From Hyphomicrobiales bacterium (GTDB lineage Bacteria; Pseudomonadota; Alphaproteobacteria; Rhizobiales; Xanthobacteraceae), in the NCBI GenBank assembly GCA_003133345.1, contig PKXB01000021.1:1-22537 (forward strand): 22,537 bases of DNA, in the 5' to 3' direction. The first letter of the stretch is position 1, and the number at the start of each line of letters is the position of its first letter. Positions 4,106 to 21,381 of the stretch are shown here, in pieces. The notes below the pieces were generated by a model that was not told the origin of the DNA, made no database searches, and saw only the letters and a list, made by a program, of their open reading frames with translations. A program made the position numbers and the translations under genes.

Positions 4106-4368
4106 GGCGGTGCCTCGGTCGCCTCGCCGGCCGCCGAAAATTCTGCCAGCGCGTCGGAGCCTTCCGCCGCCAGCAATGCCAGCGTGCGCTCTGCTTCCGC
4201 CTCGTCGATCCTGGCGAGCGCGTAGCCGACGTGAAGCACGACGTAGTCGCCGGGCTTCGGATCGTCGATGAGCGCGATCGAGATTTCCTTGACGATGCCG
4301 CCAAGCGACACCTTGGCGGTTTCGGGTCCGGTCAGGGCGACGATCTTCACCGGAAGTGCGTGACACAT
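4102..4368 (-). CDS. hypC: HypC, hydrogenase maturation chaperone
   Basis: An 88-residue chaperone of the HypC/HybG/HupF family. It shuttles the Fe(CN)2CO unit from HypD to the large-subunit precursor. It starts MCHALPVKI; Cys2, exposed after Met removal, is the essential residue. An acidic, alanine-rich C-terminal extension follows the core. The start lies 22 bp inside the end of hypF and the stop overlaps hypD. A second family member (10637-10891) lies in the structural operon, so the locus has one HypC for the core machinery and one probably dedicated to the hydrogenase. Confidence 0.95.
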   Translation of the reverse strand: MCHALPVKIVALTGPETAKVSLGGIVKEISIALIDDPKPGDYVVLHVGYALARIDEAEAERTLALLAAEGSDALAEFSAAGEATEAPP

Positions 4369-6671: not shown

Positions 6672-6691
6672 GCGTAATCTCCTGCTCAGGC

Positions 6692-7603: not shown

Positions 7604-7944
7604 CAGACGACCTCCATCTCTTTAAGTCGCATCTCATCGCCGCTTTGAACCAGAAGCTTGACGCCGCCGCAGCGCGGACATGGTGCTCCGCGCGCCGAGA
7701 TCGCCACCGAGGTTTCGCAATCGAGGCAATAGGCGGTCCCCTCGGGCTCCTGAATTTCCAGCGTGGCGCCTTCGGCCGGCCCGCCGAGCGCCGCTGCATC
7801 GACCGCAAAGCGCAGCGCATGGGCGTCGACATGGGAGAGCGTGCCGATCTCGAGCACGAGGCGGGTGACGCGGCGAGCGCGTGCGGCCGCGGCCTGCTCG
7901 TGCACCAGGTCGATCAGCGCCGTGGCGAGCGAAATCTCATGCAT
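7603..7944 (-). CDS. hypA: HypA, nickel metallochaperone
   Basis: A 113-residue nickel chaperone that works with HypB. The start was placed at the ATG at 7944, because it gives the invariant N-terminus MHEISLA (nickel ligands at the N-terminus, with His2) and has GGAGG upstream. The frame is open for six more codons, but those are not family-like. The zinc site consists of Cys73-x2-Cys76 and Cys89-x2-Cys92 (YCLDC, CPRCGG). It overlaps the hupK end by 8 bp and hypB by one base. Confidence 0.96.
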
Positions 7945-9193
7945 GAAGCGCAACCTCCGCATGGCTCGGCGGTCGATGGTCGCCCAACATCTCGATCCTG
8001 AAGGGCACGCATGGATCGAAGCTCGCGGCGAGCAGTCGGGCGGCGAGCACCGGATCCGCGACCCGGGGCGCGGCGTCGAGCGCGGCCATGAACGGCCCCT
8101 CGGGGTGGAAATTCCACTCGGTCGGCGCGACGCTGCGCAGCATCCGCACGCGACCGAAGGCCACGTCGACGAAATAGGCGAGGGGGCCGCGCGCGGTCTC
8201 CACGACGCCGGCGCCGCGTCCCGGTCGCGTCAGATCGACCTCGACCGGATCATCGTCCGCCAGCTCGTCGAGCGCGCGACACAGACGCCCGGCCACCACG
8301 GGAGCATCGAGAGCTGCGGCCAGCAGTCGCGTCGCGAGCGTCGGGCCCCAATGCGAGACGGCTTCGGCAATCAGCGGATGTCGCTGCGCCGCGAGCGGGC
8401 CGACCTCGGCCGGAGTGCCGTCGAGGGTCGGTGCATTGCAGAAAACGGGGTCCGCCGCGAGCCGGGCCGCGAACCAATCTGCGGCCATTGACGGGAGCAG
8501 CGGCCGATCATGGCGGCCATAGTCTGCCGGCATGTCGGCGCGTGCGGTGTTGATCAAACGCGCCGGTGTGCTGGCGCCACCTTGTATCGCGGGCCACAGC
8601 TCGCGCCAGGACAACGCCGGATCGGCCGCTTCCGGAAACAGCTCGATAAGCAAACGGGCAAGTTCGGACACGGCGCGGGCTAGATCATCGCGGTCCGGCC
8701 GCAGCCTAGCTCCGCCGATCCGCGCCCACGCACCATGCTCCGCGACGGTACTTACGGCGGCGGCGGCGCGACGGATATCCGCGCAGGCACGCACATTGGG
8801 CGGTCCGCCGACGAGCGGTGGCCAATCCATCAAGATTCGCCAGCCCAAGGCAGCGCCATGCTCGGCGAGCAGCATCAGCTCTCGGAACGCGAGTTGGGCC
8901 GGCGACACTTCGATCCCCTGGGTCGCCTCGATCGCCGCGAGACTGGCGATGGCGTGGGCCGTGCCGCACAGCGGGAAAAGCCGCGCCAAGACTTGCGGGA
9001 CGTCTTCTACGGGCTGCGCCGCCAAGACGCCTGCAATGCCGCTGGCGCGAGTCGTGACCAAGCTCTTCGCCACCAGACGCCCGTCGATCGTAAAGGCATC
9101 GAGGCGAATCCGTTGTTCGAGCGTTGGCCAAGCCAGCGTTGCCACTAGCGTTTCCTCCCGAAGCATGAGTGCAACGATGTCTAGCCACCCCAC
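7937..9193 (-). CDS. hupK: HupK, large-subunit-like hydrogenase assembly factor
   Basis: A 418-residue (GTG start) protein that resembles a degenerate hydrogenase large subunit. The L1 motif RxCGxC is reduced to LCGTAH, which keeps one cysteine, and the C-terminal DPCxxC is reduced to FDPCVPF. It therefore cannot bind the Ni-Fe site normally and has no cleavable tail. In rhizobia, HupK acts with HupF as a scaffold or chaperone for the large subunit. The start is uncertain: GTG at 9193 or ATG at 9166 (409 residues), neither with a convincing ribosome site. It is the first gene of the maturation operon, followed by an 8 bp overlap with hypA. A putative FNR-type operator lies about 85 bp upstream. 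Confidence 0.85.
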   Translation of the reverse strand: MGWLDIVALMLREETLVATLAWPTLEQRIRLDAFTIDGRLVAKSLVTTRASGIAGVLAAQPVEDVPQVLARLFPLCGTAHAIASLAAIEATQGIEVSPAQLAFRELMLLAEHGAALGWRILMDWPPLVGGPPNVRACADIRRAAAAVSTVAEHGAWARIGGARLRPDRDDLARAVSELARLLIELFPEAADPALSWRELWPAIQGGASTPARLINTARADMPADYGRHDRPLLPSMAADWFAARLAADPVFCNAPTLDGTPAEVGPLAAQRHPLIAEAVSHWGPTLATRLLAAALDAPVVAGRLCRALDELADDDPVEVDLTRPGRGAGVVETARGPLAYFVDVAFGRVRMLRSVAPTEWNFHPEGPFMAALDAAPRVADPVLAARLLAASFDPCVPFRIEMLGDHRPPSHAEVALHA

Positions 9194-9274: not shown

Positions 9275-9288
9275 TTGATCTAGGTCAA
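9275..9288. promoter_or_regulatory. FNR-type operator between hupK-hyp and hupE
   Basis: TTGATCTAGGTCAA matches the FNR consensus TTGAT-N4-ATCAA at 9 of 10 arm positions and sits in the 246 bp divergent gap. Class II spacing would suit either direction: leftward a TAATTT hexamer (complement of 9245-9250) is about 34 bp away, and rightward AAAATT (9313-9318) is about 34 bp away. The arms are identical to those of the site at 18235. Assignment to the regulator at 16547-17278 is inferred. Confidence 0.7.
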
Positions 9289-9439
9289 CACTCGCGGAGG
9301 AGTTTGAGCCCAAAAATTCAAAGCTGCGGGGGATTGTCCAGTTCACGACCATGCGACGGAAGTCATAGAAGAAAACAAACGCGCAAAAAAGATTAGGTCG
9401 TCGCCTTAGCCGCAGCGGGAGATTTCGAAGGAGAAAGCC

Positions 9440-10039
9440 ATGTCCCGAACGGCATTTCGTCTGCTTGTGACGGTCGCCTTACTGCTCGCGCCCAGCGTCG
9501 CGTTTGCCCATCCCGGGCACGGTGAGGGTGGTAGCCAGTTGGCCGGGTTCATCCATCCATTTAGCGGTATCGATCATCTGCTGGCGATGACAGCCGTCGG
9601 CCTGTTCGCGGCCCATCTTGGCGGGCGTGCGCTGTGGGCAGTCCCGGCGACCTTCGTCGCCATGATGGCGCTCGGCGGTGTCTTCGGCGCAGCCGGCGTG
9701 TCGCTGCCCTTCGCCGAGACCGCCATCGCATTGTCGGTTCTGGTATTCGGGTTCGTGATTTTCTCCGGAATGACGCCGCCGGTTCTCGCCGCCATGGCGC
9801 TCGTCGGAATCTTTGCGATCTTCCACGGCCACGCGCACGGGACCGAAATGCCGGTCGGCGGCTCCGGGGTCGTCTATGGCATCGGCTTCATGGTCGCAAC
9901 CACGTTGCTGCACGGCTTCGGTATCACGCTTGGCCTGGCAATACGGTGGTTCGACGATGTGCCTAGGCGTCGCGCCATGCAGGCCTGCGGCGTCGCGATC
10001 GCGCTGATCGGGGCGGGTCTTACGATCGGTCTTGTGTGA
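9440..10039 (+). CDS. hupE: HupE/UreJ-family nickel permease
   Basis: A 199-residue inner-membrane protein for nickel entry to hydrogenase maturation. A cleavable signal peptide (residues 1-23, ending AFA) precedes a mature N-terminus beginning HPGHGEG. The family signature HPFSGIDHLLAM is at 39-50, and a second histidine motif FHGHAHGTE is at 128-136. About six hydrophobic segments follow the usual pattern. The ribosome site GAAGGAG lies 8 bp before the ATG. It is the only hydrogenase gene on the plus strand, diverging from hupK and converging on hybE, so it needs its own promoter; the operator at 9275 is well placed. Confidence 0.93.
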   Translation: MSRTAFRLLVTVALLLAPSVAFAHPGHGEGGSQLAGFIHPFSGIDHLLAMTAVGLFAAHLGGRALWAVPATFVAMMALGGVFGAAGVSLPFAETAIALSVLVFGFVIFSGMTPPVLAAMALVGIFAIFHGHAHGTEMPVGGSGVVYGIGFMVATTLLHGFGITLGLAIRWFDDVPRRRAMQACGVAIALIGAGLTIGLV

Positions 10040-10091
10040 TCGGGCGCAGAGCGCTTGCTAGGAAATTGAACGCATCTTCCGCGGCGGAGTT

Positions 10092-10107
10092 GCGGACGAT
10101 CGTCCGC
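10092..10107. repeat. Perfect 16 bp palindrome in the convergent hupE/hybE gap
   Basis: GCGGACGATCGTCCGC is its own reverse complement and can fold into a 6 bp GC-rich stem with a GATC loop. It lies in the 80 bp between two converging genes, where a bidirectional terminator would be expected, but no T-run follows on either strand, so a terminator role is only a possibility. Confidence 0.4.
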
Positions 10108-10119
10108 TAGGCGCCGGGT

Positions 10120-10626
10120 TCAGGCGTTCCGGTTCCCGAACAGCAGCGCGCGGCGATCGAGGCTGCTCGCTGCGTCGGAGCGGTTTTTTGCCGCGGTTTC
10201 CGACGTCACCTCAGGCAGTGTCATCAGCAATCCAAGCATCCGCCGTGCCTCGGCTTGTGCTTGACCCGGCAGCGTAAAGTTCAGCACCGGCGAATGCAGC
10301 GAATGGGCCTTATAGAGCCCGATCGTCCCGTCGCCGCCGACCACGAATGCTCGCTTGCCCGCGGGCAGTTCAATGGAAACGGTCCTGCCGATCTCGGCCA
10401 TGTTCATCGGCACCGGCTCGATCGGCAGCGTGATCATGTTCATGAACCAGGGCGTGAGCACGACGCCCAACAGTTCGCCATCGCTAAAGGGGAGGAAGCC
10501 GGTCGCCTCGATGACGATTTTGTCGTTGTAGATCGGCAGATCCCGCATTCCGGCATCGATGCGCTGAAATAGCTCGATCAGTGCCTGTACGCGGGGATGA
10601 TCGTCGGGATCGCCAGAGGGTTTCAT
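10120..10626 (-). CDS. hybE: HybE/HupJ-family hydrogenase assembly chaperone
   Basis: A 168-residue protein of the [NiFe]-hydrogenase assembly chaperone HybE family (HupJ in rhizobia). In E. coli, HybE works in the Tat proofreading and assembly of Hyd-2. Recognisable segments are LPIYNDKIVIEATGF, the conserved VVLTPWFMNMI, LPAGKRAFVVGGDG, and YKAHSLHSPV. It carries no rubredoxin domain. The ATG at 10626 was chosen because family similarity starts there; the open frame runs 30 codons further but into hupF. It lies 10 bp after hupF and ends the structural operon. The ribosome site is weak. Confidence 0.9.
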   Translation of the reverse strand: MKPSGDPDDHPRVQALIELFQRIDAGMRDLPIYNDKIVIEATGFLPFSDGELLGVVLTPWFMNMITLPIEPVPMNMAEIGRTVSIELPAGKRAFVVGGDGTIGLYKAHSLHSPVLNFTLPGQAQAEARRMLGLLMTLPEVTSETAAKNRSDAASSLDRRALLFGNRNA

Positions 10627-10636
10627 TGCGATGGAT

Positions 10637-10891
10637 TCAAGCGACGCGCGCGGTCTGGGCCCGGTCGGCGAGCTCGGGGAAGAGATCTTCAAAGAACCGC
10701 CTGGCCGCTTGGGCATCCTCCCGCGCGATCTTGGTCACTGCATAGCGCTGCGCCTGCAGGGCGACGAAATCCCCCGGCTGCACCGTTTCCGACATCATCA
10801 TCAGGCTAACGGTGAAGCGCTCGCCATAGACATCGACGACCGCCATCGGCCCATCGATTGAAATCACCTCGGCTGGAACGGCGATGCACAT
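10637..10891 (-). CDS. hupF: HupF/HybG, hydrogenase-specific HypC-type chaperone
   Basis: An 84-residue HypC-family protein starting MCIAVPAEVISIDG, with the essential Cys2. The C-terminal half (QPGDFVALQAQRYAVTKI, then FFEDLFPEL) resembles HupF more than the HypC at 4102. By position, between the protease and hybE, it corresponds to hybG in the E. coli hyb operon. Its expected job is binding the large-subunit precursor; rhizobial HupF also protects the precursor from oxygen and cooperates with HupK. It starts 12 bp after hybD. Confidence 0.9.
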   Translation of the reverse strand: MCIAVPAEVISIDGPMAVVDVYGERFTVSLMMMSETVQPGDFVALQAQRYAVTKIAREDAQAARRFFEDLFPELADRAQTARVA

Positions 10892-10903
10892 TCTTGCGAT
10901 GAC

Positions 10904-11386
10904 CTATTGCAGCCGCAGCGTTGGCGCAGCACCGAGACGGGTGAGTTCATCGACGATCATGGTCACGGCCGCATCGCGGCCGTCGGCAGCTGCCGGCGAC
11001 AGCTCCAAGCCGAGGCTCAGATTCTGCGGAACGACACCGATGATGACGACCCGGCGTGGTGCCTTGTCGATGAGGCACAGCGCGGCAAGCATGTCCGAGA
11101 GGCCCAATTGGTGCGGCGAAAACCGGGTCTCGAACAGCATCCTGATGTTCTCGTTTTCGAGCCGGATCAGGCGACCGGCCGGCCCATCGGCGTTCACGGC
11201 GTCGGCGACGATCAGGCAGTCGCGGTCGGCGACCATGTCGAGCAGATCCATGCCCGAGGTGCCGCCATCGAGCAATTCTACGCCATCCGGCAGATCGTGC
11301 GAGGCATCGAGCGCTTCAACGATGCGCACGCCGACGCCTTCATCCGACAGGAGGATGTTGCCGAGGCCGAGGACCAGAATGCTCAC
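10904..11386 (-). CDS. hybD: HybD, hydrogenase maturation endopeptidase
   Basis: A 160-residue nickel-dependent protease that removes the C-terminal peptide of the large subunit after nickel insertion. The nickel-sensing residues of HybD are in place: Glu16 (LSDEGVGVR), Asp62 (LIVADAV) and His92 (SPHQLGLSD). The start is a GTG at 11386 giving MSILVLGLGNILL, the conserved N-terminus; AGAAGG lies about 8 bp upstream. The open frame reaches much further 5', but that part overlaps hybC and is not family-like. It lies 14 bp behind hybC, its substrate. Confidence 0.94.
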   Translation of the reverse strand: MSILVLGLGNILLSDEGVGVRIVEALDASHDLPDGVELLDGGTSGMDLLDMVADRDCLIVADAVNADGPAGRLIRLENENIRMLFETRFSPHQLGLSDMLAALCLIDKAPRRVVIIGVVPQNLSLGLELSPAAADGRDAAVTMIVDELTRLGAAPTLRLQ

Positions 11387-11400
11387 GATCGCGCCTTCTT

Positions 11401-13107
11401 TCACATCGCCTTGATTTGAACGATCGGCCGCTTCTCGGCGTCGACCATGTGGACCGCGCAGGCGATGCAGGGGTCGAACGAGTGCACGGTGCGCAGCACC
11501 TCGAGCGGCAGGTTTGCATCGGCAACGGGGGTATCGATGAGCGAGGCCTCGTAGGGGCCGGGCTCGTCGTTCTGGTCGCGCGGGCCGGCGTTCCAGGTCG
11601 AGGGCACGACGCACTGGTAATTGTCGATCTTGCCGTCCTTGATCACGACCCAGTGCGAAAGCACGCCGCGCGGCGCCTCGTGATAACCGAAGCCGCGCAC
11701 CTCGCCCTTGGGGAATACCGGCCGATTGAAGGTGCGGGTATCGCCCTTGGCGATGTTGTCGAGCAGCAGCTGCCACTGGTTCTGCAGCGCTTCGTGCAGC
11801 ACCGCGCAGCGCACGGCGCGGGCCGCGATGCGCCCGATTGTCGAGTGCAGCGCGCTGAGCGGGATCGGCGCACCGGCGACCTTGCTCGCGACCTCGACCA
11901 GCTTGGTCAGGTGCCGCTTGGTCGGCTCGTGGCCGGCGGCGTACATGCCCAGCACGTTGGCGAGCGGACCGACCTGCGCGCGCTTGTCGAGGAAGGTCGG
12001 CGCCTTGATCCAGGAGTATTTCCCGTCGTCGTGGAAATCGTCGTATTTCGGCGTGGTCTGACCGTCGAAAGGATGCAGCGCGGCGTTCGTGCCTGAATAC
12101 TCGTACCAGGAGTGCTTGACCGCTTCCTTGACGCCGTCGCGGAAAAAGGCGTCCTGATAGCTTTTGATCGCTTGGAACTTCGACAGGTCACCTGCCGGGA
12201 TGTAGCCGCCGGGAAGCTCGAACACCGTCCCTTTGGTATCGAGCGGGAGATCGGGCACCGACAGATAGTTGGTGACGCCGGCGCCGTATTTCGTCCAATC
12301 CGCGTAGAGCGCGCCGACCGCGGCGACGTCGTTCATCATCGCGTTGTTGATGAAGTCGCCGAGCTGGTCGATTAGCGCTTTGATGGCGTACAGCCGTTCC
12401 AGGGTCAGGGTCGACTGGCTTTCGGGATTGATCGCATTCGCCACGCCACCGACCGCGAGGTTCTGGATGTGCGGCGTCTTGGAACCCAGGATGGTGACGA
12501 TCTTGTTGGCGATGCGTTGCACTTCGAGTGCCTGAATGTAATGCGTCGCCGCCAGCAGGTTGACATCCGGCGGCAGCTTCATGGCCGGGTGGCCCCAATA
12601 GCCCGAGGCGAATACGCCGAGATTGCCGCTGTCGACGAAGGTTTTCAGCTTGTCGCGCACCGACCGAATGTTGGGGATACTGTTGGCTTTGTAGTCGGAC
12701 AGGGTCGCGCCGAGCTTGGACGCACCCTCCGGATCACCCTTGAGCGCCGAGACGATATCGACCCAGTCGAGCGCGGCGAGATGATAGAAATGCACGATAT
12801 GGTCGTGCACGCCGTGCGCCGTGATGATCATGTTGCGGATATACTGGGCGTTGAGCGGAACTTCGAGATTGAGGGCGTTTTCCACCGCGCGTACCGAGGT
12901 GATGGCGTGCACCGTCGTGCAAACGCCGCAGATCCGTTGCGTGAAGATCCAGGCGTCGCGCGGGTCGCGATCTTTGAGGATGAGCTCGATACCCCGCCAC
13001 ATCTGACCCGACGACCAGGCCTTTGTCACCTTGCCGCCGTCGACTTCGCAGTCGATACGCAGATGCCCCTCGATGCGGGTGATGGGGTCGATCGTTATGC
13101 GAGTCAA
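11401..13107 (-). CDS. hybC: HybC-type [NiFe] hydrogenase large (catalytic) subunit
   Basis: A 568-residue catalytic subunit, close along its whole length to E. coli HybC (group 1c, periplasmic-facing uptake hydrogenase). Nickel ligands are Cys60/Cys63 in RICGVC and Cys547/Cys550 in DPCIACAVH. HybD would cut after His553 and remove a 15-residue tail. GHPAMKLPP, GGVANAINPES, and APRGVLSHW are also typical. The start codon is TTG at 13107: it gives the expected N-terminus (TRITIDPITRIEGHLRID) and has AGGAGG 5 bp upstream; no ATG fits. Together with HybO it oxidises H2 and passes electrons through the Fe-S chain to HybA/HybB and quinone. The gene lies 12 bp after hybB. Confidence 0.97.
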   Translation of the reverse strand: MTRITIDPITRIEGHLRIDCEVDGGKVTKAWSSGQMWRGIELILKDRDPRDAWIFTQRICGVCTTVHAITSVRAVENALNLEVPLNAQYIRNMIITAHGVHDHIVHFYHLAALDWVDIVSALKGDPEGASKLGATLSDYKANSIPNIRSVRDKLKTFVDSGNLGVFASGYWGHPAMKLPPDVNLLAATHYIQALEVQRIANKIVTILGSKTPHIQNLAVGGVANAINPESQSTLTLERLYAIKALIDQLGDFINNAMMNDVAAVGALYADWTKYGAGVTNYLSVPDLPLDTKGTVFELPGGYIPAGDLSKFQAIKSYQDAFFRDGVKEAVKHSWYEYSGTNAALHPFDGQTTPKYDDFHDDGKYSWIKAPTFLDKRAQVGPLANVLGMYAAGHEPTKRHLTKLVEVASKVAGAPIPLSALHSTIGRIAARAVRCAVLHEALQNQWQLLLDNIAKGDTRTFNRPVFPKGEVRGFGYHEAPRGVLSHWVVIKDGKIDNYQCVVPSTWNAGPRDQNDEPGPYEASLIDTPVADANLPLEVLRTVHSFDPCIACAVHMVDAEKRPIVQIKAM

Positions 13108-13119
13108 AGTAGCCTCCTA

Positions 13120-14259
13120 TTAGCGACGCGCGGCATCGCCGTGCAGCACTGGCAAGGTCTTGATGAAGATGAGGTAGAGAAGCACTTCGAGCGCGACGAC
13201 GCCGATCGACACCATCAGCTCGGGTACGGAAGGGAAGTAGGACCAATTGTTGAGCGGCTGATAGCCGATCAGATAGGCATCGAGGCGGTAGAGCGATCCG
13301 CCGGCGAGCAGCGCGACGGCGCCGAGGAACGAAGCCCGCTGGCTCGCGCGCCCGGCCGGCGTGATGAACACCAGGGCGGCAGCGAGGAACATGGCGTTCT
13401 CGACCCAGAACAGGAAGACACTGATGCTGCCGATGAAGGCCAGCGGCAGGGCGTTGCGCGCGACCAGATCGCCAAAGCGCAGTACGAGCCAGGCGACGGT
13501 GATCCAGCCGACGACGATTGACATCTTCGAGATCAATGCGTGTTCGGACGGCAGCGAGAAGGTCTTTGAAACGACCGTCGCCTCGAACATCACCACGGCA
13601 TAGCCCATGGCCAGCGCGCTGATGACGAACAAGGCCGGCAGCCAGAGCGTGAACCACAGCGGGGAGAGTCTGTATTCCATCACCAGCAGCATCGATCCGA
13701 GCGAGGACTGGTGCATGGTCGGCAGTAGGACGCCGAGCGCGACGATCACGAACATCCAACGATCGAGAACGCGCTTGATTGCGGCGAAGCCCCAGCGTTC
13801 GAGGAACGCCGGCGAAAACTCGATCCACAGCACTACCACGTAAGCCATCACGCAAAGCGCGACCTCGAACATGACCGAGTTGAGCTGGGCGTGCCACGGC
13901 AGCAGCAGATTATAGGCCTGCCAATAGCGGCCGAGATCGAAAATCACGGCAAAGCCGCCGAGTGTATAGCCGAACAGCCCGCTGAGCAGCGCCGGCCGCA
14001 TCAACGGATGGTATTGGCCGCGATTGAAGATATAGACCAACAACGCCATGGCGAAGCCGCCGCAGCCGAACGCGGTGCCGATGATGACGTCGACGACGAC
14101 CCAGATTCCCCAAGGGTAGCCGGGGTTGATGTTGGCGACCGCGCCGAGCCCGAAGAGGAATCGCTGAAGCAGGAAACAGAAGGCGATGACGACCAGCGCG
14201 ACGAGCACTAGCGTGGTCGGCGTTACCAGGCTTCTGCGCAGCGGTGCTGCCGTGCTCAC
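13120..14259 (-). CDS. hybB: HybB, NrfD-type integral membrane subunit
   Basis: A 379-residue, highly hydrophobic protein with about ten predicted membrane helices, of the NrfD/HybB family. In Hyd-2 it carries electrons from HybA to the quinone pool without haem. Typical parts are the first helix followed by NINPGYPWGIWV, the loop LLPWHAQLNSVMFEVAL, and LPTMHQSSLGSMLL. The start is a GTG at 14259, chosen because AAGGAGG ends 7 bp upstream, at the very end of hybA, and the next residues match the family; only 2 bp separate it from the hybA stop. No HupC cytochrome b is present, so this is the only visible membrane electron outlet. Confidence 0.94.
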   Translation of the reverse strand: MSTAAPLRRSLVTPTTLVLVALVVIAFCFLLQRFLFGLGAVANINPGYPWGIWVVVDVIIGTAFGCGGFAMALLVYIFNRGQYHPLMRPALLSGLFGYTLGGFAVIFDLGRYWQAYNLLLPWHAQLNSVMFEVALCVMAYVVVLWIEFSPAFLERWGFAAIKRVLDRWMFVIVALGVLLPTMHQSSLGSMLLVMEYRLSPLWFTLWLPALFVISALAMGYAVVMFEATVVSKTFSLPSEHALISKMSIVVGWITVAWLVLRFGDLVARNALPLAFIGSISVFLFWVENAMFLAAALVFITPAGRASQRASFLGAVALLAGGSLYRLDAYLIGYQPLNNWSYFPSVPELMVSIGVVALEVLLYLIFIKTLPVLHGDAARR

Positions 14260-14261
14260 GA

Positions 14262-15272
14262 TCAACCCTCCTTGGACGGCGGCGCGTCGTCGTCGTGGTG
14301 CAGTGCCAAGTTGCGACGAGCCAGGAACGCGAACCCCACGAAGGCGACGAGCGGCGCGATCAGCCACTGATAAATTGTGTGCTGCATGCCTTCGGAGAGC
14401 GAGGCGGGAGACTGCCGTCCGACGGTCGGCAATCCGAGTTTTGGGAACGGCACGCCGGCGAGATAGCGCACTTGGGTGCCGCCGGCTTCGTGCTCGCCGT
14501 AGACGCCTTTGACGTAGGTCGGAATTGTCGCCGCATTGGGCGGACGGTTCTCGCCGATCTTGCCGCGCGGGAACTGATAGGGAGTACCGGGAGCCGCGGC
14601 GGTCCTACGCTCAATCTCCCGTTCAAGCTCCTTGACCGGCCCGAACAGCGAGGCCCCGGTTGGACATACGTCGCAGCAGGCGGGAATCTTGCCGTCCTTC
14701 TGCAGATGCCTGCAGAACTCGCACTTGGCGATTTTTCCCAAGGCGCTACTGAAATCGAATTGCGGCACGCCGAACGGACAGCCGTAGACGCAGTAGCGGC
14801 AGCCGATGCAGACATCCGGGTCATAGCTGACGATGCCGGTTGCCGCGTCCTTCTGCATGGCGCCGACTGGGCAGACCGAAACGCATGACGGGTCGACGCA
14901 ATGCAGGCAATGCCGCTTGACGAAGGCGAAACCGTTAATCTCGTGGTCCTTCTGCTCCGCGGTGCCGTTGCGATAGACCTTGATGACGTTGAGCGTGCGG
15001 CCCGACAAATCCTCCGCAGAATCCCAGGTGTTCTCGTTCCAGCCGGTCAGGGTCGCCGGGACCTCAGCCGGCATCTTGTTGGCCTCCTTACAGGCGGCCA
15101 CGCACGCCTTGCAGCCGATACAAAGGGTCGAGTCGTAAAGCATTCCGACCGCCTGCGGCGATATCTGCTTCGGCGGCCGTGCGATGGCGGCCGATGCCTC
15201 GGTGGGCACGGCCGCCGCCGCGGTGGCGAAACCGGCGCCCCTCAGGAAATCCCTGCGGTCGACCTCGGTCAT
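14262..15272 (-). CDS. hybA: HybA, Tat-exported four-cluster ferredoxin subunit
   Basis: A 336-residue periplasmic ferredoxin that links the small subunit to HybB. A Tat signal starts the protein (DRRDFLRG, Arg6-Arg7). Four cysteine groups follow: CIGCKACVAAC (51-61), HCLHCVDPSCVSVC, CIGCRYCVYGC, and a divergent one (CEFCRHL, CCDVC), enough for four [4Fe-4S] clusters. A C-terminal hydrophobic helix (WLIAPLVAFVGFAFLA) anchors it, as in E. coli HybA. The ATG lies 2 bp after the hybO stop. Presence of hybA and hybB between the two catalytic subunits is the hallmark of the Hyd-2 operon. Confidence 0.95.
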   Translation of the reverse strand: MTEVDRRDFLRGAGFATAAAAVPTEASAAIARPPKQISPQAVGMLYDSTLCIGCKACVAACKEANKMPAEVPATLTGWNENTWDSAEDLSGRTLNVIKVYRNGTAEQKDHEINGFAFVKRHCLHCVDPSCVSVCPVGAMQKDAATGIVSYDPDVCIGCRYCVYGCPFGVPQFDFSSALGKIAKCEFCRHLQKDGKIPACCDVCPTGASLFGPVKELEREIERRTAAAPGTPYQFPRGKIGENRPPNAATIPTYVKGVYGEHEAGGTQVRYLAGVPFPKLGLPTVGRQSPASLSEGMQHTIYQWLIAPLVAFVGFAFLARRNLALHHDDDAPPSKEG

Positions 15273-15274
15273 GG

Positions 15275-16441
15275 CTAGACCCGCTCTTTCGTCTCGTCCG
15301 GTGCGCTCTTCTTGCCGTCGCCCATCTGCTTGAGCAGCATCGCGCCGGCGCCGACCACGAGGCCGCCCACCACGCCGACCGCTGCCGCGGCGCCGACGCT
15401 GACGCCCTTACCCTTCTCGGCGTCGACCTGCGGGAAGGCAGTCGGCGGCGTCAGAGTCTTGACCGTCGAGAGCGCATGCAGCGGCTTGCGGAACGCCGTT
15501 TCCTTCTCGACGCAGCCGAAGCATGGGTGTCCGGTCCCCACCGGCCACGAGCCGAAGCCGACGTCGCCGAAACCGATCGATGGGCAGTTAGCGTAGGTCT
15601 CCGGACCCTTGCAGCCGATCTTGTAGAGGCAGAAACCCTGACGGTGGCCTTCGTCGCCGAACTCGAGGGCGAAACGCCCGGCATCGAAATGCGGCCGCCG
15701 CTCGCAGTTCTCGTGGATCAATCGGCCATAGGCGAATTTGGGCCGATTCTGTTGGTCGAGCTCGGGCGGACGACCGAAGGTCAGCAGGTAGAGGACGGTC
15801 GACAGAAAATTGTAGGGGCTGGGCGGGCAGCCCGGAATATTAATCACCAGCTTGCCGGGAATGACCTCGTGCGTGCCGACTGCGCCTGTCGGGTTTGGAT
15901 CGGCCGATTGGATGCCACCCCAGGATGCGCATGAGCCTATAGCAATGACGGCGGCCGCGCCCTCGGCGGCCTCGCGGATGAGTTCGACTTGAGTCTTACC
16001 GCCGACCTTGCAGTAGATGCCGCCATCCTTCATCGGCGTTCCGCCCTCGGTCACGAGCACGTACTTGCCTTTGTTTTTCTCCATCATTGCGTGTTTGTAA
16101 TCCAGTGCCTGCTTTCCGGCGCCGATGCACAGCGTGTCGTGATAGTCGAGCGAGATGACATCCAGAAGGATCGCCTCCAGCGTCGGGTGGTAGGATCGCA
16201 GCAGCGATTCCGTGCAGCCGGTGCATTCCTGCCCATGCAGCCAGATCACCGGCGGCCTTGCCGGCGCTGTCGCCGCCTCCGCCATGCGCACGCCTGCGGT
16301 CGCCGAGAGCCCCATCGTGGCGGCTATCCCGGCGCAGAACTGCAGCATCTGCCGGCGGGTCAGCCCTCCGTATACCGGTTCATCGGGGTTAGGCCCCAGA
16401 CAGGCCTCGAAATCGATGTCGGGATTGCAGGTAGCGTCCAT
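15275..16441 (-). CDS. hybO: HybO-type [NiFe] hydrogenase small subunit
   Basis: A 388-residue Fe-S subunit with a Tat signal (LTRRQMLQFC, Arg29-Arg30), which also exports the bound HybC. Proximal cluster ligands are Cys73/Cys76 in ECTGCTES, plus Cys in GSCASWGG and PGCPP. Both extra cysteines of O2-tolerant enzymes are glycines here (ECTGC, SWGG). Distal ligands are in LIHENC and GFCLYKIGC; the medial [3Fe-4S] ligands are in ANCPS and HPCFGC. A C-terminal helix (about 350-375) anchors the protein. ATG at 16441 with CAGGGG about 8 bp upstream. First gene of the hyb operon, 105 bp after the regulator gene. Confidence 0.96.
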   Translation of the reverse strand: MDATCNPDIDFEACLGPNPDEPVYGGLTRRQMLQFCAGIAATMGLSATAGVRMAEAATAPARPPVIWLHGQECTGCTESLLRSYHPTLEAILLDVISLDYHDTLCIGAGKQALDYKHAMMEKNKGKYVLVTEGGTPMKDGGIYCKVGGKTQVELIREAAEGAAAVIAIGSCASWGGIQSADPNPTGAVGTHEVIPGKLVINIPGCPPSPYNFLSTVLYLLTFGRPPELDQQNRPKFAYGRLIHENCERRPHFDAGRFALEFGDEGHRQGFCLYKIGCKGPETYANCPSIGFGDVGFGSWPVGTGHPCFGCVEKETAFRKPLHALSTVKTLTPPTAFPQVDAEKGKGVSVGAAAAVGVVGGLVVGAGAMLLKQMGDGKKSAPDETKERV

Positions 16442-16501
16442 GGGCCGGCCCCTGTGAGATTCCTACGTAAGACGCGCTACCAGGGGCGCCGGAAAACGGC
16501 G

Positions 16502-16515
16502 ATGACGATTGTCAA
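16502..16515. promoter_or_regulatory. Candidate weak FNR/CRP-type operator upstream of hybO
   Basis: ATGACGATTGTCAA contains the perfect dyad TGAC-N4-GTCA and matches the FNR consensus at 7 of 10 arm positions. It is centred 67 bp upstream of the hybO start codon, between the regulator gene and the hyb operon. At class II distance the minus strand offers only TAGCGC, a poor -10. It is the weakest of the four related sites in the window. Confidence 0.45.
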
Positions 16516-16546
16516 TTTTTTCGGATAAGGCTGACGCTGCGACGAC

Positions 16547-17278
16547 TCACGCCGAGATCAGCCTGTCGATTTCGCCGGCGAGCGCTTCCACGCTGGGGAT
16601 CGTGACCTGACGGCCGGAAAAGTGTGCCACTCCATCGGTCTCGAGCCGTCCAATGATACGAGAGATGGTCTCGTGACGCGTGCCGACCATCGAGGCGAGG
16701 TCCCGGCGCGACACAGGCAGGTCGATCGATTGCGAGCCGTTTGAGTGCCGACGCCCGTGCCGTTGGACTAGGACGAGCAGAAGATGCACGAGCTTATGGC
16801 GGTTCGACAGTGTCGCCTGACGAAACATCATGTCGTGAGCGTGTTCGAGCTCGCCGATCGAGCGTTTGAGAAAACGCAGGCCAAGCGCCGGGTTGCCGGC
16901 AAGCAGAGCCGTAATCGCCGCGCGGTCGATGTGACACACTACGCTCGGACCCAGCGCTTCGGCACTGGTCTTGTGTTCGCTGCCGGTGAGGAATGAACGG
17001 TATCCGATTGTGTCGCCCGGATAGGCCAGTTCCAACAGTACCGAATTACCGTTGTCATCGAGCCGACGGATTCCAACGGTGCCGCCGGAGACGCAGTGCA
17101 CGCCGTCGTTCTGCTCTCCCTGGACGAAGACAACCTCGCCGGAACCATATTCGCGTCGCCGCCGTCCACCGGCCAGCAAGGCGCTCGCGGTTTCGTCAAG
17201 ATCGTGCCAAACGCTCCGCGGCCCGACGTGGCAGACAACGCAGGCATGATTCTCGTGCTTCGTGCAGCTTTGCGCCAT
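16547..17278 (-). CDS. FNR/CRP-family regulator with probable Fe-S sensing cysteines
   Basis: A 243-residue regulator with a cyclic-nucleotide-binding-like beta barrel (about 25-140), a dimer helix and a C-terminal winged helix (about 190-240). The recognition helix HETISRIIGRL has Glu203, Ser206 and Arg207, the FNR/FixK E-x2-S-R pattern that reads TTGAT half-sites. Cys5, Cys13 and Cys16 at the N-terminus and Cys115 (SVVCHID, aligned to E. coli FNR Cys122 in SMVCEIP) suggest an oxygen-sensitive [4Fe-4S] cluster, though the C-x7-C-x2-C spacing differs from E. coli FNR (C-x2-C-x5-C). Oriented towards hyb, it may be partly co-transcribed. A strong hairpin lies just before its start codon. I do not assign a specific name (FnrN, FnrL, or other). 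Confidence 0.9.
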   Translation of the reverse strand: MAQSCTKHENHACVVCHVGPRSVWHDLDETASALLAGGRRRREYGSGEVVFVQGEQNDGVHCVSGGTVGIRRLDDNGNSVLLELAYPGDTIGYRSFLTGSEHKTSAEALGPSVVCHIDRAAITALLAGNPALGLRFLKRSIGELEHAHDMMFRQATLSNRHKLVHLLLVLVQRHGRRHSNGSQSIDLPVSRRDLASMVGTRHETISRIIGRLETDGVAHFSGRQVTIPSVEALAGEIDRLISA

Positions 17279-17288
17279 GGTCTATGCC

Positions 17289-17310
17289 GCGCCTCGGGCG
17301 TCCGAGGCGC
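17289..17310. repeat. Hairpin in the leader of the regulator gene
   Basis: Arms GCGCCTCGG (17289-17297) and CCGAGGCGC (17302-17310) pair perfectly with a 4-base loop. In the regulator mRNA the stem ends 10 bases before the ATG and contains the only GAGG in reach, so it could mask ribosome binding. Read on the plus strand the stem is followed by TCTTTC. Confidence 0.6.
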
Positions 17311-17351
17311 TCTTTCGATCTGGTCGCGCTAAAATTCGACTGGCATGATGA

Positions 17352-17373
17352 CCCGGCCCAGGCCGGGGGTTTT
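17352..17373 (+). terminator. Possible terminator-like hairpin, plus strand
   Basis: CCCGGCC (17352-17358) and GGCCGGG (17361-17367) form an inverted repeat, in practice a 5-6 bp stem, followed by GG and four T. No plus-strand gene ends here, so if real it would shield the cytochrome/pao side from transcripts coming from the left, or it may belong to the regulator leader. Confidence 0.25.
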
Positions 17374-17379
17374 AATATA

Positions 17380-17429
17380 CCGCAATTAAACTGGCGGCCT
17401 CCATCCAAGGTAGTAGCCCCTAATTGCGG
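17380..17429. repeat. Spaced inverted repeat upstream of the regulator
   Basis: CCGCAATTA (17380-17388) and TAATTGCGG (17421-17429) are perfect inverted copies, 32 bases apart, in an AT-richer patch of the 334 bp gap between the regulator and the cytochrome gene. It could be a pair of protein-binding half-sites or a stem-loop in a leader; no known element is recognised. Confidence 0.45.
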
Positions 17430-17507
17430 CACTCGGCCGGTCTTGCGAGGCCCCCGACGATCTCAGTCCGCCGGGGCGAGGCGCTCGACGGACGATATCG
17501 AGCAAAA

Positions 17508-17521
17508 TTGACGATCATCAA
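17508..17521. promoter_or_regulatory. FNR-type operator upstream of the cytochrome c gene
   Basis: TTGACGATCATCAA matches TTGAT-N4-ATCAA at 9 of 10 arm positions. GCTAAT at 17542-17547, about 30 bp from the site centre, could be the -10 of a class II promoter for the cytochrome gene at 17613. The site is 230 bp from the divergently read regulator gene, so autoregulation is possible but less direct. Confidence 0.65.
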
Positions 17522-17612
17522 CGACGATTGACGTGCTTCCGGCTAATTGCCCAATGGTCCGCAGGATCGGCAGGAAGCCGCGGAGGCGGGCGTCGTTATC
17601 CGGGTGCAAGCC

Positions 17613-18050
17613 ATGCAGCGGTCTGGTTCTTATGTTGCGGCTGCCGTCGTCATCGTGGCTGTTGTGGCGGCCGTTGCTTGGGTGCTTACCACGCAACCAC
17701 AAGCGTTCCCTGGCCTGCAGACGGTCGGTCTCTATAAGTTCAAGGCGATGCCGGTCGGTGCCGATGGACCGCTGAAGGAATGCGTCGTGTGCCACAGCGT
17801 CGAGACCGGCGGCCCGCTTCGCGTGGGGCCCCCGCTGCACGGTATCGTGGGGGCACGCAAGGCGCGGACGGAATGGTACGGCTATTCGGCGGCGCTGCGG
17901 AAGGCCGAGGGCAACTGGACCGAAGCCGATCTCGACAAGTTTCTGACTTCGCCAAGCAAGTTCCTGCCGGGTACCTCGAAAACCCTCATCGGCATTCCCG
18001 ATGCCAAGCAGCGCGCAGACATTATCGCGGCTCTGAAGAAGGCGCCGTAA
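17613..18050 (+). CDS. Membrane-anchored class I c-type cytochrome with Met-to-Lys change
   Basis: A 145-residue monohaem cytochrome. An uncleaved N-terminal helix (residues 7-25) anchors it on the periplasmic side. The haem motif is CVVCH (Cys57, Cys60, His61), followed by GPPLHGIVG, a WYGYSAAL helix and a C-terminal ADIIAAL helix, the usual small class I layout. The axial methionine expected in PGTKMxF is replaced: the sequence reads PGTSKTLIG, with Lys123 at the Met position, and there is no other methionine after the haem motif. The ATG at 17613 was chosen because the frame upstream offers only TTG/GTG starts and lacks sense as a signal; no clear ribosome site is seen. It stands alone between the hydrogenase and pao operons and may accept electrons from either. 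Confidence 0.85.
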   Translation: MQRSGSYVAAAVVIVAVVAAVAWVLTTQPQAFPGLQTVGLYKFKAMPVGADGPLKECVVCHSVETGGPLRVGPPLHGIVGARKARTEWYGYSAALRKAEGNWTEADLDKFLTSPSKFLPGTSKTLIGIPDAKQRADIIAALKKAP

Positions 18051-18400
18051 TAGGCCCCGGTTTGCGGAGCTAGAATTACATCTACGCCGACGGCACCGAT
18101 TTTGTGCTTTTTGAAAATATGATCCGGCAACTACTCGCGGTCATGCAACAATCGTGCATTGCCACGCGGATCGACTACATTGCGCTCCGCAAGTTTGCCG
18201 CAAAGCAATGACGAACAAGATTTGATTCTTCCTATTGATCCTCGTCAAAGCGGAGCAATGCAAATTGTTCAACATATAAACTTGTAAGCGCATCCTTGAC
18301 CCCTGCAAAGAACGATTGTCGCTCAAGCAGAGATAATAATTCGACTGGAAACTCGATGGGTCGGAGCCGGCACCATAAAAGCGATCATGGCAGGCATTCC
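18051..18400. other. Intergenic region before paoA
   Basis: About 350 bases without a convincing gene. It is AT-richer than its surroundings and holds the FNR-type site at 18235-18248 and a TATAAA at 18275-18280. The frame of paoA is open from 18296 and contains an in-frame ATG at 18356, so the transcript leader may be shorter than 120 bases if that start is used. Confidence 0.6.
18235..18248. promoter_or_regulatory. FNR-type operator upstream of the pao operon
   Basis: TTGATCCTCGTCAA has the same arms as the site at 9275 and matches the FNR consensus at 9 of 10 positions. TATAAA at 18275-18280 is centred 36 bp downstream, a few bases more than ideal class II spacing (CATATA at 18273 gives 34). 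It is the best promoter-like arrangement in the window. Confidence 0.72.
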
Positions 18401-18997
18401 ATGTCGCGCCGATCATTCTTGAGAGGTTCGGGGATTGGCGCCGCGAGTACGGTGATGCTCGATACAACGTTGCCAGATTTTCTCGCTTCAGACGCGCAGG
18501 CCGCGGAACGGGATGCCGTCGGTCCGGGGCCGGTTCCGCTGACGCTCGACGTGAACAATGTGTCGCATTCGCTATTCATCGAGCCGAAAACGACGTTAGC
18601 CGAAGCATTGCGCGATTCGCTCGATTTGACCGGAACCAAGGTCGGTTGCGACCGCGGCGCTTGTTCGGCTTGCACTGTCTGGCTCGACGGGAAGCCGATC
18701 GCAGCTTGTATGATGCTGGCAATCGATGTCGGCAGTCGCAAGATTACGACGATCGAAGGATTGGCGCACGGTGACGAGCTGCATCCCGTGCAGTCTGCTT
18801 TCATCGCGCATGACGCCGTGCAGTGCGGGTTCTGCACGCCGGGTCTCGTGATGAGTTGCGCGGCGCTGCTCGAAAGCAATCCGACCCCCACGATCGACGA
18901 TATCAAAGCAGCAACCAGTGGCCATCTCTGCCGCTGCGGCACCCATCCGCATGTACATGACGCGATGCTGGATGCGTCCCGGATTAGGAAGACCTAA
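18401..18997 (+). CDS. paoA: PaoA-like [2Fe-2S] subunit of periplasmic aldehyde oxidoreductase
   Basis: A 198-residue small subunit of a xanthine-oxidase-family enzyme. A Tat signal (MSRRSFLRG, Arg3-Arg4) opens it; in E. coli PaoABC only PaoA carries a Tat signal and the folded trimer is exported with it. The plant-type ferredoxin cluster uses GCDRGACSACTVW and the following AAC; the second [2Fe-2S] cluster uses QCGFCTPG and CRCG. TKVGCDRG, KITTIEGLAHGDELHPVQ and AFIAHDAVQCGFC closely follow PaoA. ATG at 18401 was chosen for the Tat signal; an upstream in-frame ATG at 18356 (213 residues) is possible. It is separated by 2 bp from paoC. Confidence 0.88.
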   Translation: MSRRSFLRGSGIGAASTVMLDTTLPDFLASDAQAAERDAVGPGPVPLTLDVNNVSHSLFIEPKTTLAEALRDSLDLTGTKVGCDRGACSACTVWLDGKPIAACMMLAIDVGSRKITTIEGLAHGDELHPVQSAFIAHDAVQCGFCTPGLVMSCAALLESNPTPTIDDIKAATSGHLCRCGTHPHVHDAMLDASRIRKT

Positions 18998-18999
18998 TC

Positions 19000-21381
19000 A
19001 TGACGTCCGCCGATACGCGCTTGCAAAAATATCCCGTCGGAATCGACAGCGTGTCGATGGCAGAGATCGAGCGTCGCGTTCCCGCCGGCGAGGCGCCGCC
19101 GCTTCCGCCAAATCCACAGCTGGCCGTGATCGGAAAATCAATTCCGCGCATTAATGGCCGCGCCAAGGTCACGGGTGCGGCCCCGTTCACGGTCGACGTG
19201 AAACTGCCGGGCATGCTGTACGCACGCCTATTGCGATCGCCGTTGCCGCATGCCCGTGTCATGTCGATTGATATAGGTGCCGCAGAACGGCATCCGGGGG
19301 TACGCGCGATCCACGTCATCAACGACGTGGTGGGACGTGCCGTCGAGACGACCGGACAGAATACGCCTGCCGGGACAAGCGGTCGTCGCGTTCTCTATGT
19401 TGGCGATCCGATCGCCGCGGTCGCCGCCGTCACGCCGGAGGCGGCGCAGGCAGCGGTGGATCTAATCAAAGTCGATTATCAGCCGCTTGCATTCGTGGTT
19501 GATCTCGAGGATGCACGGAAGCCCGACGCGCCACGCGTCTTCGCGCATCCGGTACATGGTGAGAGCTTTGCGGGCGGAAACCCGGCGGGCACCGCGCTGC
19601 CGCAACAGGGCAATGTCCGCGGCCCGAATAAAAGCGGCTCGCGCGGCGATGCCGCAGCCGGGTTCGCGGATGCCGATGTCGTCATAGAGGGCGAGTTCCG
19701 TACCCAGGTGCAGACCCATTGCTGCCTCGAGCCGCACGGTCTGGTGGCCGATTGGCGAAAGGATGGGCTCACCGTCTACATGTCTACGCAATTTACGGCC
19801 GGCATACGTGCCGAACTTGCCGCAGCCTTCGGCCTGCCGCTCAGCCGCGTGCGTGTGATCGTCGATGCGATGGGCGGCGGCTTCGGATCGAAGTCCAGCG
19901 CCGGCAATTATGCGCGTGCGGCGGTCACGCTGTCGCGCCAAGCCAATGCTCCGGTCAGGCTCGTGCTTGACCGGCACGAGGAGCAGATCGACAGCGGCAA
20001 TCGCCCGGCGACGGTGCAACGGCTGCGCGTCGGGGCGCGGCGCAATGGCACGCTCACAGCGATTGCCATCGACACTTACGGGACGTCCGGCGTCGGGCTC
20101 GGCGCCGGCATCGGCAACTTCGCTCAAGCAATTTACGATTGCGCCAATTTCGAATTGGTCCAGTCCGATGTCTTCATCAATGCCGGCCCGGGCTGTGCGA
20201 TGCGCGCGCCCGGCAATGTTCCAGGCGCCTTCGCGCTCGAACAGACTATCGATGAGCTAGCCGAGAAACTCGGCATGGATCCCTTGACGTTGCGCGGGCG
20301 GATCGATCTGAGCGCGGTGCGCCGCGAGGAACGGCGCATCGGGGCCGCGCGCTTCGGCTGGAACCGCCGGCGGGCGCCCGGCAGCGATAGCGGTCCCATC
20401 AAGCGCGGCCTTGGCATGGCGCAATCGCTTTGGGGAGCCAACGTACGAACCAATTCGGCCTGCGAAGTTCGCATATTCCGCGACGGCTCCGTCGAGGTGC
20501 TTTCGAGCGTCCAGGACATCGGGACCGGCATCGGAACCGTGCTGGCGCAAGTCGTTGCGGAGGAACTGGGCTTGCGGCCCGAGGACATCACGGTTCGCAT
20601 CGGCGACACGGAATATCCTGCGGGCCCGCCATCGTATGGAAGTCTGACAACGGCGTCGATCACGCCGCCGGCCAGAAATGCCGCGTATCAGGTGCTGCGA
20701 AAACTTATCGAGATTGCGGCGCCGTCCTTCGCGGCGGCTGCCGGAAACTTAGCGGCGCGTGCCGGTCGAATCAGCACTGCCGACAACAGTCGCAGTATCG
20801 GTTTTCGGGAGGCGGCGGCGCAATTGCCCACCGATCAAATCGGCGTCGTCGCGAGCCGCTCCGACGATTATGCCGACTTCGCTCGCAAGATGGGCGATAT
20901 GGCCTCGGCGCAAAACGCGCTGGGCGGCGTGCAATTTGCCGAGGTTGCGGTCGACACCGAAACCGGGATCGTTCGCGTCGAACGCGTCGTCGCGGTGCAA
21001 GACTGCGGTCGCCCGATGAACCCCCTGCAAATCGAGAGCCAGGTTCAGGGCGGAATCCTGCAAGGGATTTCCTATGCCTTGTTCGAGGAGCGCATCCTCG
21101 ACCGGCACACCGGCCATATGCTCAATGCCAATCTAGAACAATACAAGATCCTGCGCTCGCGCGAGACACCTGCGATAGAAGTGCACCTGCTGGAAAATTA
21201 TCAGGGCATGAGCGCGACCGACGCCTATGGCATCGCCGAGCCGTCGAATATCGCCACCGCTCCTGCGATCGCAAATGCCGTCTACAACGCGATCGGCGTG
21301 CGCCTGCGGCAGTTGCCGATGTCACCCGCCGCCGTTCTTGCCGCGCTCGGCCGAATTCCACAGCGGAGCGGACCGACATGA
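19000..21381 (+). CDS. paoC: PaoC-like molybdopterin-binding large subunit
   Basis: A 793-residue catalytic subunit of the xanthine oxidase family, expected to bind molybdenum-MCD and oxidise aldehydes. The aldehyde-oxidase/XDH N-terminal domain covers about 45-170. Molybdopterin motifs are GGGFGSK (292-298), MRAPGNVPGAFALEQ and QDIGTGIGT; the base-catalyst Glu is Glu747 in YGIAEPSN. It lacks the AYxCSFR loop of true CO dehydrogenases. It has a linker of about 45 residues at the N-terminus and is longer than E. coli PaoC (about 730). No signal peptide: export would be with PaoA. AGGAAG lies 9 bp before the ATG. The substrate cannot be read from the sequence; isoquinoline 1-oxidoreductase-like enzymes are the main alternative. 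Confidence 0.87.
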   Translation: MTSADTRLQKYPVGIDSVSMAEIERRVPAGEAPPLPPNPQLAVIGKSIPRINGRAKVTGAAPFTVDVKLPGMLYARLLRSPLPHARVMSIDIGAAERHPGVRAIHVINDVVGRAVETTGQNTPAGTSGRRVLYVGDPIAAVAAVTPEAAQAAVDLIKVDYQPLAFVVDLEDARKPDAPRVFAHPVHGESFAGGNPAGTALPQQGNVRGPNKSGSRGDAAAGFADADVVIEGEFRTQVQTHCCLEPHGLVADWRKDGLTVYMSTQFTAGIRAELAAAFGLPLSRVRVIVDAMGGGFGSKSSAGNYARAAVTLSRQANAPVRLVLDRHEEQIDSGNRPATVQRLRVGARRNGTLTAIAIDTYGTSGVGLGAGIGNFAQAIYDCANFELVQSDVFINAGPGCAMRAPGNVPGAFALEQTIDELAEKLGMDPLTLRGRIDLSAVRREERRIGAARFGWNRRRAPGSDSGPIKRGLGMAQSLWGANVRTNSACEVRIFRDGSVEVLSSVQDIGTGIGTVLAQVVAEELGLRPEDITVRIGDTEYPAGPPSYGSLTTASITPPARNAAYQVLRKLIEIAAPSFAAAAGNLAARAGRISTADNSRSIGFREAAAQLPTDQIGVVASRSDDYADFARKMGDMASAQNALGGVQFAEVAVDTETGIVRVERVVAVQDCGRPMNPLQIESQVQGGILQGISYALFEERILDRHTGHMLNANLEQYKILRSRETPAIEVHLLENYQGMSATDAYGIAEPSNIATAPAIANAVYNAIGVRLRQLPMSPAAVLAALGRIPQRSGPT

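Follow-up and report, generated by a model that had tools for sequence, protein, structure and literature searches.

A conserved FNR-type site at the hydrogenase-2-type and cytochrome c promoters beside a linked CRP/FNR-family regulator in a Hyphomicrobiales genome

Introduction

FNR, FnrN and FnrL of Proteobacteria have in common the CRP fold, a recognition helix with the conserved residues E..SR, and class II promoters, whose boxes are centred at -41.5 (PMC7713065; papers given by PMC number enter here as excerpts, and statements drawn from them are limited to these). Our subject is a stretch of 22,537 nucleotides (nt) from a Hyphomicrobiales bacterium (assembly GCA_003133345.1, contig PKXB01000021.1, positions 1 to 22,537 of the forward strand), which we call the window. 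In it a regulator with the same fold, the same helix residues and the same predicted spacing lies beside genes for a hydrogenase-2-type [NiFe] hydrogenase (hyb), a c-type cytochrome (cyc), hydrogenase maturation and nickel uptake (hup/hyp), and a molybdenum (Mo) aldehyde/xanthine-type oxidoreductase (AOR). A first-pass annotation had joined hydrogenase, nickel uptake, cytochrome and oxidoreductase into one FNR-type regulon through four similar dyads. That observation holds, and is stronger than had been claimed, for hyb and cyc, where operator, promoter geometry and co-occurrence with the regulator agree; for AOR the single-regulon reading probably fails.

Other described systems resemble the locus in part. 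The E. coli hydrogenase 2 operon has homologues of hybO, hybA, hybB, hybC, hybD and hybE, to which the window adds a linked regulator, the cytochrome c and hup/hyp genes alongside. An FnrN-type promoter for hydrogenase maturation genes is shared with R. leguminosarum; there hupSL is NifA-dependent (PMC3534401), whereas in the window an FNR-type operator and a linked regulator accompany the structural genes. FixK2 of Bradyrhizobium differs from our regulator in that FixK proteins, in the excerpts at hand, are without N-terminal cysteines (PMC4999443, PMC7713065). E. coli PaoABC is likewise a three-subunit enzyme of Mo, iron-sulfur (FeS) and flavin adenine dinucleotide (FAD) subunits, and the FeS subunit of the window gives a weak match to a twin-arginine translocation signal (20.6 bits, cut-off 22.7), but AOR falls far below the PaoABC equivalog cut-offs (167.7 against 322 bits for PaoA, 398.8 against 1180 for PaoC). 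In the open-access literature we found no account of a hyb-linked FNR of this kind or of such a regulator/operator pair.

The hyb and cyc sites

16502..16515, minus strand: putative private operator of the hyb promoter, TTGACAATCGTCAT on that strand; 0-2 bases from TTGACGATCGTCAA in 10/10 clusters
16474..16479, minus strand: candidate -10 element of hyb, TAGCGC, 22 nt after the site
17508..17521, plus strand: putative private operator of the cyc promoter, TTGACGATCATCAA; from pattern match, promoter alignment and centre comparison
17544..17549, plus strand: candidate -10 element of cyc, TAATTG, 22 nt after the site

All four dyads of the first-pass annotation, at 9275, 16502, 17508 and 18235, are present as reported, and they sit in the four intergenic gaps hupK/hupE, fnr/hybO, fnr/cyc and cyc/aorA. 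Three of them (9275, 17508, 18235) indeed match TTGATNNNNATCAA at 9/10 arm positions, and 16502 does so at 7/10, counted by eye. The suspicion that chance was an unlikely cause, offered at the time without a calculation, is borne out: the window has 13 matches to TTGATNNNNATCAA at up to 2 mismatches against 4.05 expected, a number that 0 of 100 shuffles reach, and 3 exact matches to TTGAYNNNNRTCAA against 0.038 expected from dinucleotide shuffles, of which 1 in 1000 reaches three. The site at 16502 is one base off TTGAYNNNNRTCAA, as are those at 18626 and 22095, inside the FeS- and FAD-subunit frames. Two further claims need correcting. The dyads are not strictly confined to the promoter gaps, a fourth 9/10 match (22095, TCGATCCACATCAA) falling within the AOR FAD-subunit frame, and they are not all of one kind: 16502 and 17508 have a fixed centre, GATC/AATC, with a purine at position 6 of each half-site. 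At that position 9275 has a pyrimidine in both halves and 18235 in one.

We followed the sites through ten non-redundant hyb clusters whose regulators are 50-100% identical: the window, L143/G018, L047, L048, L049, L050, L051, L144/G590, L217/G855 and L222/G820. A site 0-2 bases off TTGACGATCGTCAA stands before hybO in all ten, including L047, from the same metagenome-assembled genome (MAG) as L046, whose contig holds no more of hybO than its first 7 codons, and G820, in which ~11 kb of a single contig separate regulator and hyb and the site is TTGACGGGCGTCAA. Left out of the site counts were L046 (near-identical to the window), a second box of G855 (L217, 10244), and L049 and L050 for cyc. 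An ungapped alignment of nine promoters gives a mean identity of 97% within the site, against 63% outside.

The site goes with the regulator. Where hybO is 78-100% identical and the regulator is present, the site is found in 5/5 genomes, 74-109 bp before the start of the match; where hybO is 60-64% identical and there is no regulator at E<=1e-40, it is found in 0/4 (up to 3 mismatches, 500 bp searched). The presence of these four regulator-free genomes, and of the four AOR genomes treated below, in the class and family samples was read from handle numbers. At 229-263 bp upstream, three of the regulator-free hyb genomes do have a box of the ordinary pattern, exact in one and with a single mismatch in two. 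Of four further [NiFe] small-subunit genes in genomes with the regulator, none has the site. Beside the regulators of L049 and L050 there is neither a cyc match nor a cyc-type site; gene and site are present or absent together. In 2/4 of the regulator-free hyb clusters hybO has a cyc homologue (39-46% identical) immediately upstream, an arrangement that speaks for cyc as a partner of the hydrogenase.

The promoters also agree in geometry. A TA, the likely start of the -10 element, follows the site by 22 nt in 7/10 hyb promoters and by 23 nt in the other 3, and by 22 nt in 6/8 and 23 nt in 2/8 cyc promoters. At other offsets between 8 and 39 nt TA is rare, with a mean count per offset of 0.10 for hyb (n=10) and 0.07 for cyc (n=8). 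By our own reckoning, a centre at -41.5 converts to ~22 nt from site end to -10, so that, as judged from TA spacing, all 18 of the hyb and cyc promoters are predicted to have the geometry of class II FNR activation.

One count was set aside: at up to 2 mismatches TTGACGATCGTCAA occurs at 18 places in the genome against 2 for the reversed pattern, but the backgrounds of CGATCG and GCTAGC may differ. Three of these places were followed, namely both window sites and G000:C23:16165-16178 (TTGACGATGGTCAA). The latter is one base from the private operator and 43 nt before a plus-strand open reading frame (ORF) in a rough gene call, a possible further target.

The more ordinary boxes at hup/hyp and AOR

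9275..9288, unstranded: FnrN/FixK-type box in the hupK/hupE gap; identical 14-mer in G018, centre C..G like most boxes of the genome
9247..9252, minus strand: candidate -10 element of the hupK-hyp operon, GATAAT, the hexamer starting 22 nt after the box
18235..18248, plus strand: FNR-type box upstream of the AOR genes, mixed centre; from arm match, first TA at 26 nt

Pattern searches of the source genome, a draft of 3.43 Mb that is 83% complete, from a Bradyrhizobium-like host, return 67 exact TTGAYNNNNRTCAA boxes, the window's three included, against 1 for the reversed pattern. Of 50 boxes listed among the 67, 39 are intergenic (three of them in the window), an approximate fraction that depends on a rough ORF caller trained on window genes. 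These numbers indicate that the box belongs to a genome-wide network. The genome also encodes other CRP/FNR proteins with E..SR helices, one of them FixK-like and without an N-terminal cysteine cluster (G000:C57:34400).

How do the hyb and cyc sites differ from these boxes? In the 36 other intergenic boxes among those listed, position 6 is C or T in 54/72 half-sites. Purines in both halves at that position are found in 18/18 hyb and cyc sites and in 2/36 intergenic boxes elsewhere in the genome, a comparison that we use descriptively. The ordinary class agrees with the FnrN/FixK consensus TTGANCNNGATCAANG, as excerpted from PMC4999443, and the site at 9275, read on the minus strand, fits it in its 14 core positions. 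Taking C at position 6 together with G at position 9 as the FnrN/FixK signature of that source, 0/18 hyb and cyc sites carry it, the hupK site does, and the AOR site has the position 6 base on one strand only.

On the hupK side of the box the candidate hexamer is GATAAT in the window and GATAGT in G018, with the TA at 24, not 22, nt; on the hupE side the window has no TA at 8-39 nt, and G018 has one at 23. By its sequence 9275 belongs to the ordinary FnrN/FixK class, which 18235 resembles less cleanly; for hup/hyp this would favour the global network. In G590 a box, TTGACGTCTGTCAA, precedes on one strand a short ORF (L144:8401-8838), cyc, hupK, hypA and hypB; this ORF, which stands before cyc, we take to be hemerythrin-like. 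In G855 cyc and then hupE follow a box on the cyc strand. These gene orders suggest that the reach of the cyc box may extend to maturation or nickel genes in some relatives; in the window those genes follow an ordinary box.

After the AOR box the first TA comes at 26 nt, within TATAAA. Each of five further AOR homologues (60-66% identity) is likewise preceded by an FNR-type box, exact in four cases and with a single mismatch in the fifth, against a background, in seven fetched sequences, of 0.07 boxes (up to 1 mismatch) per 350 bp. One of the five is a second copy in the window's own genome and four, from the family sample, are in genomes where the regulator was not found at E<=1e-40. The second copy is seen as an FeS-subunit gene, 66% identical, with its own FNR-type box TTGATCTCGATCAA (G000:C234:10752-11327, L177). 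G018 has no AOR gene in the 8.6 kb beyond cyc; besides L046, only the L050 cluster has AOR-like matches, weak ones (32-40%) ~4-6 kb from the regulator, and L053 has one at 27%. Since AOR boxes are present without the regulator, and no AOR gene lies beside the cluster in G018, the box is most simply a property of AOR, and on this sequence evidence most simply read by a global FixK/FNR protein.

The regulator

16547..17278, minus strand: CRP/FNR-family regulator, 243 amino acids; C5, C13, C16, C62, C115; recognition helix RHETISRIIGRL

Domain profiles and a structural model (P0001, which differs from the window regulator at residue 150 only; mean predicted local distance difference test score 86.9) give a CRP/FNR fold with a cNMP-binding-like (cyclic nucleotide monophosphate) and a Crp-like helix-turn-helix domain. 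Our alignment comprises 122 sequences, that is, 120 listed of 292 homologous proteins plus 2 loci. The FNR recognition residues E203, S206 and R207, pointed out in the first-pass annotation, are present and kept in 120, 120 and 121 of the 122. So are C62 and C115, in 122/122, and C13 and C16, in 113/113 of the sequences with letters at both positions; among the other 9, one has V at 16. A third N-terminal cysteine occurs only as C5 (92/113; the window protein has it) or C25 (4/113), and 19/113 have neither. The conserved set of the lineage, C13, C16, C62 and C115, is not the canonical FNR set.

The regulator is rare, occurring (own genome included) in 2/391 genomes of the family sample and 5/385 of the class sample at E<=1e-40, and in 3/397 of the order sample at E<=1e-60. 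Of 80 loci, 72 (L054-L125) hold distant CRP/FNR proteins, which were left out of the footprint and read only for cysteines and helix. A cysteine stands at the C62 position in three of these (L060, L081 and L095), and L060 and L081 have C115-position and N-terminal cysteines also; the C62 feature may extend beyond this lineage. Upstream of the regulator, an AT-rich stretch at 17360-17385 (GGTATATTAAAA on the minus strand), similar by eye in L047, L048 and L143, is perhaps its own promoter, without an FNR box.

Other features of the window

By profile searches, the gene order from left to right is hypE, hypD, hypF, hypB, hypA, hupK (minus); hupE (plus); hybE, hybD, hybC, hybB, hybA, hybO (minus); the regulator (minus); the c-type cytochrome (plus); and the three-subunit Mo oxidoreductase (plus). 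The best named match, locus L046 (a 16 kb contig of a MAG labelled Bradyrhizobium sp.), has the identical order from AOR to hypA, with proteins 94-100% identical.

1920..9193, minus strand: hupK, hypA, hypB, hypF, hypD, hypE; profile searches
9440..10039, plus strand: hupE, HupE/UreJ-type nickel permease; PF04955
10120..11776, minus strand: hybD (maturation protease), a small ORF, hybE; profile searches, provisional starts
11401..13107, minus strand: hybC, large subunit; PF00374, 700.2 bits
13120..14367, minus strand: hybB, membrane subunit; NF008133, 475.6 bits, cut-off 450, true start possibly further in
14262..15272, minus strand: hybA, ferredoxin-type subunit; NF008134, 426 bits, cut-off 263
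15275..16441, minus strand: hybO, hydrogenase-2-type small subunit; NCBIfam TIGR00391, 478.3 bits, cut-off 179.5
17604..18050, plus strand: cyc, c-type cytochrome with hydrophobic N-terminal stretch and CVVCH motif; start inferred from relatives
18296..22409, plus strand: AOR, three subunits; FeS 18296-18997, Mo 19000-21381, FAD within frame 20430-22409

The window thus holds the hydrogenase-2-type subunit set HybO, HybA, HybB and HybC. HybA and HybB score over their cut-offs, and HybO and HybC score below the hydrogenase-2 equivalog cut-offs. The cytochrome scores 41 bits against a cut-off of 240 for NF043008. Adjoining hypE, an ORF at 197-1912 resembles a formyltransferase in its N-terminal part (Formyl_trans_N, just below cut-off) and an enoyl-CoA hydratase in its C-terminal part (Pfam ECH_1, over cut-off), the domain make-up of HypX/HoxX-type proteins.

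Discussion

We propose, as the likely explanation, that a dedicated activator of the FNR lineage acts on hyb and cyc through the private operator TTGACGATCGTCAA, and that hupK-hyp and AOR are under global regulators. This proposal draws on the observed sites, their conservation, their spacing, their co-occurrence with the regulator and the difference in their centres. A dimer of the regulator would bind TTGACGATCGTCAA, whose end lies 22-23 nt before the candidate -10 elements of hybOABC(DE) and cyc, and would activate both as class II promoters. Low oxygen would most likely be the inducing condition, with a cysteine-bound iron-sulfur cluster as the sensor. For hupK-hyp and AOR, whose boxes are more ordinary ones of the FnrN/FixK type, control would most likely lie with global regulators of the FixK/FNR type. 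There would then be two layers converging on low oxygen, not one regulon. The oxidation of H2 and that of aldehydes, which the first-pass annotation placed under one oxygen or redox signal, may still share a response to low oxygen, but via different regulators.

Could the local regulator read all four sites after all, the inner bases being unconstrained as they are in the classical FNR consensus? The TTGA...TCAA-like arms are common to all four, the helix has E203, S206 and R207, the hup site is unchanged in G018, which also has the regulator, and the maturation or nickel genes of G590 and G855 lie behind a box on the cyc strand. The inner bases, however, are fixed at hyb and cyc and not elsewhere, 9275 and 18235 are without the private centre, AOR boxes occur without the regulator, and the first TA after the AOR box comes at 26 nt, all of which leads us to regard a single regulon as unlikely. 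We find it more improbable still that a global FixK/FNR protein, such as the FixK-like G000:C57:34400, reads all four sites and that the local regulator acts elsewhere or is redundant. Such a paralogue does exist, the 67 boxes against 1 for the reversed pattern speak for a wide network, and an FnrN-type promoter drives hyp genes in R. leguminosarum (PMC3534401, in excerpt). A global reader would nevertheless leave the centre of the hyb and cyc sites, rare among other boxes (2/36), and the presence of the site in 5/5 hyb genomes with the regulator and 0/4 without it, to be accounted for.

Several points also weigh against a dedicated activator with its own operator. The 18 hyb and cyc sites are homologous, not independent, so that their contrast with other boxes is a description, no test, and a Fisher value computed for it is no probability. 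The hyb sites of the window and of G820 are each 2 bases off TTGACGATCGTCAA, the private centre is missing from a second box of G855 near fnr, and among the six AOR boxes that of G120 (TTGAGGCACATCAA) shows a purine in each half. There is variation among the boxes near regulators of 35-46% identity (TTGACGGTTATCAA, TTGATGATCGTCAA, TTGACGTTGGTCAA, TTGATCCACGTCAA, TTGATCAACATCAA), and of the class genomes tested, G593, G687 and G765, with regulators 35-43% identical, have no hybO at E<=1e-30, so that only the closer regulator lineage goes with hyb. In the literature, a different FixK2 consensus (TTGA/C-N6-T/GCAA) places no constraint on position 6, and the putative FixK2 boxes given for B. diazoefficiens include one, TTGATGTCCGTCAA, whose centre resembles the private one (both in the excerpt of PMC6710368). 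Finally, the arms are common to both kinds of site, which makes cross-binding possible.

What would a dedicated activator mean among known FNR proteins? Its lineage keeps C13 and C16, the third N-terminal cysteine of FNR not being conserved, and its operator differs from that of FNR in having a fixed centre. In A. fischeri FNR the cysteine of SMVCEIP, which we take to be C122 in E. coli numbering, aligns with a cysteine of the regulator, whereas the conserved C62 of the lineage falls where A. fischeri has alanine. More generally, and tentatively, we suggest a separate alphaproteobacterial FNR lineage, associated with a hydrogenase-2/cytochrome c module, that combines its own operator (GATC, purine at position 6), set apart from the FnrN/FixK boxes of its host, with a changed-cysteine sensor (C13, C16, C62, C115) in which the third FNR ligand is dispensable. 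Given the changed cysteine set, the cluster may be ligated and tuned differently from that of FNR, and, if this is true, an FNR that can spare its third ligand and conserves C62 would put the requirements of the cluster to the test. An FNR-type regulator appears here to have left the common box at its inner bases, with the E..SR residues kept, amid dozens of ordinary boxes. Thus it becomes testable, with two promoters and two proteins, how FNR paralogues maintain separate regulons.

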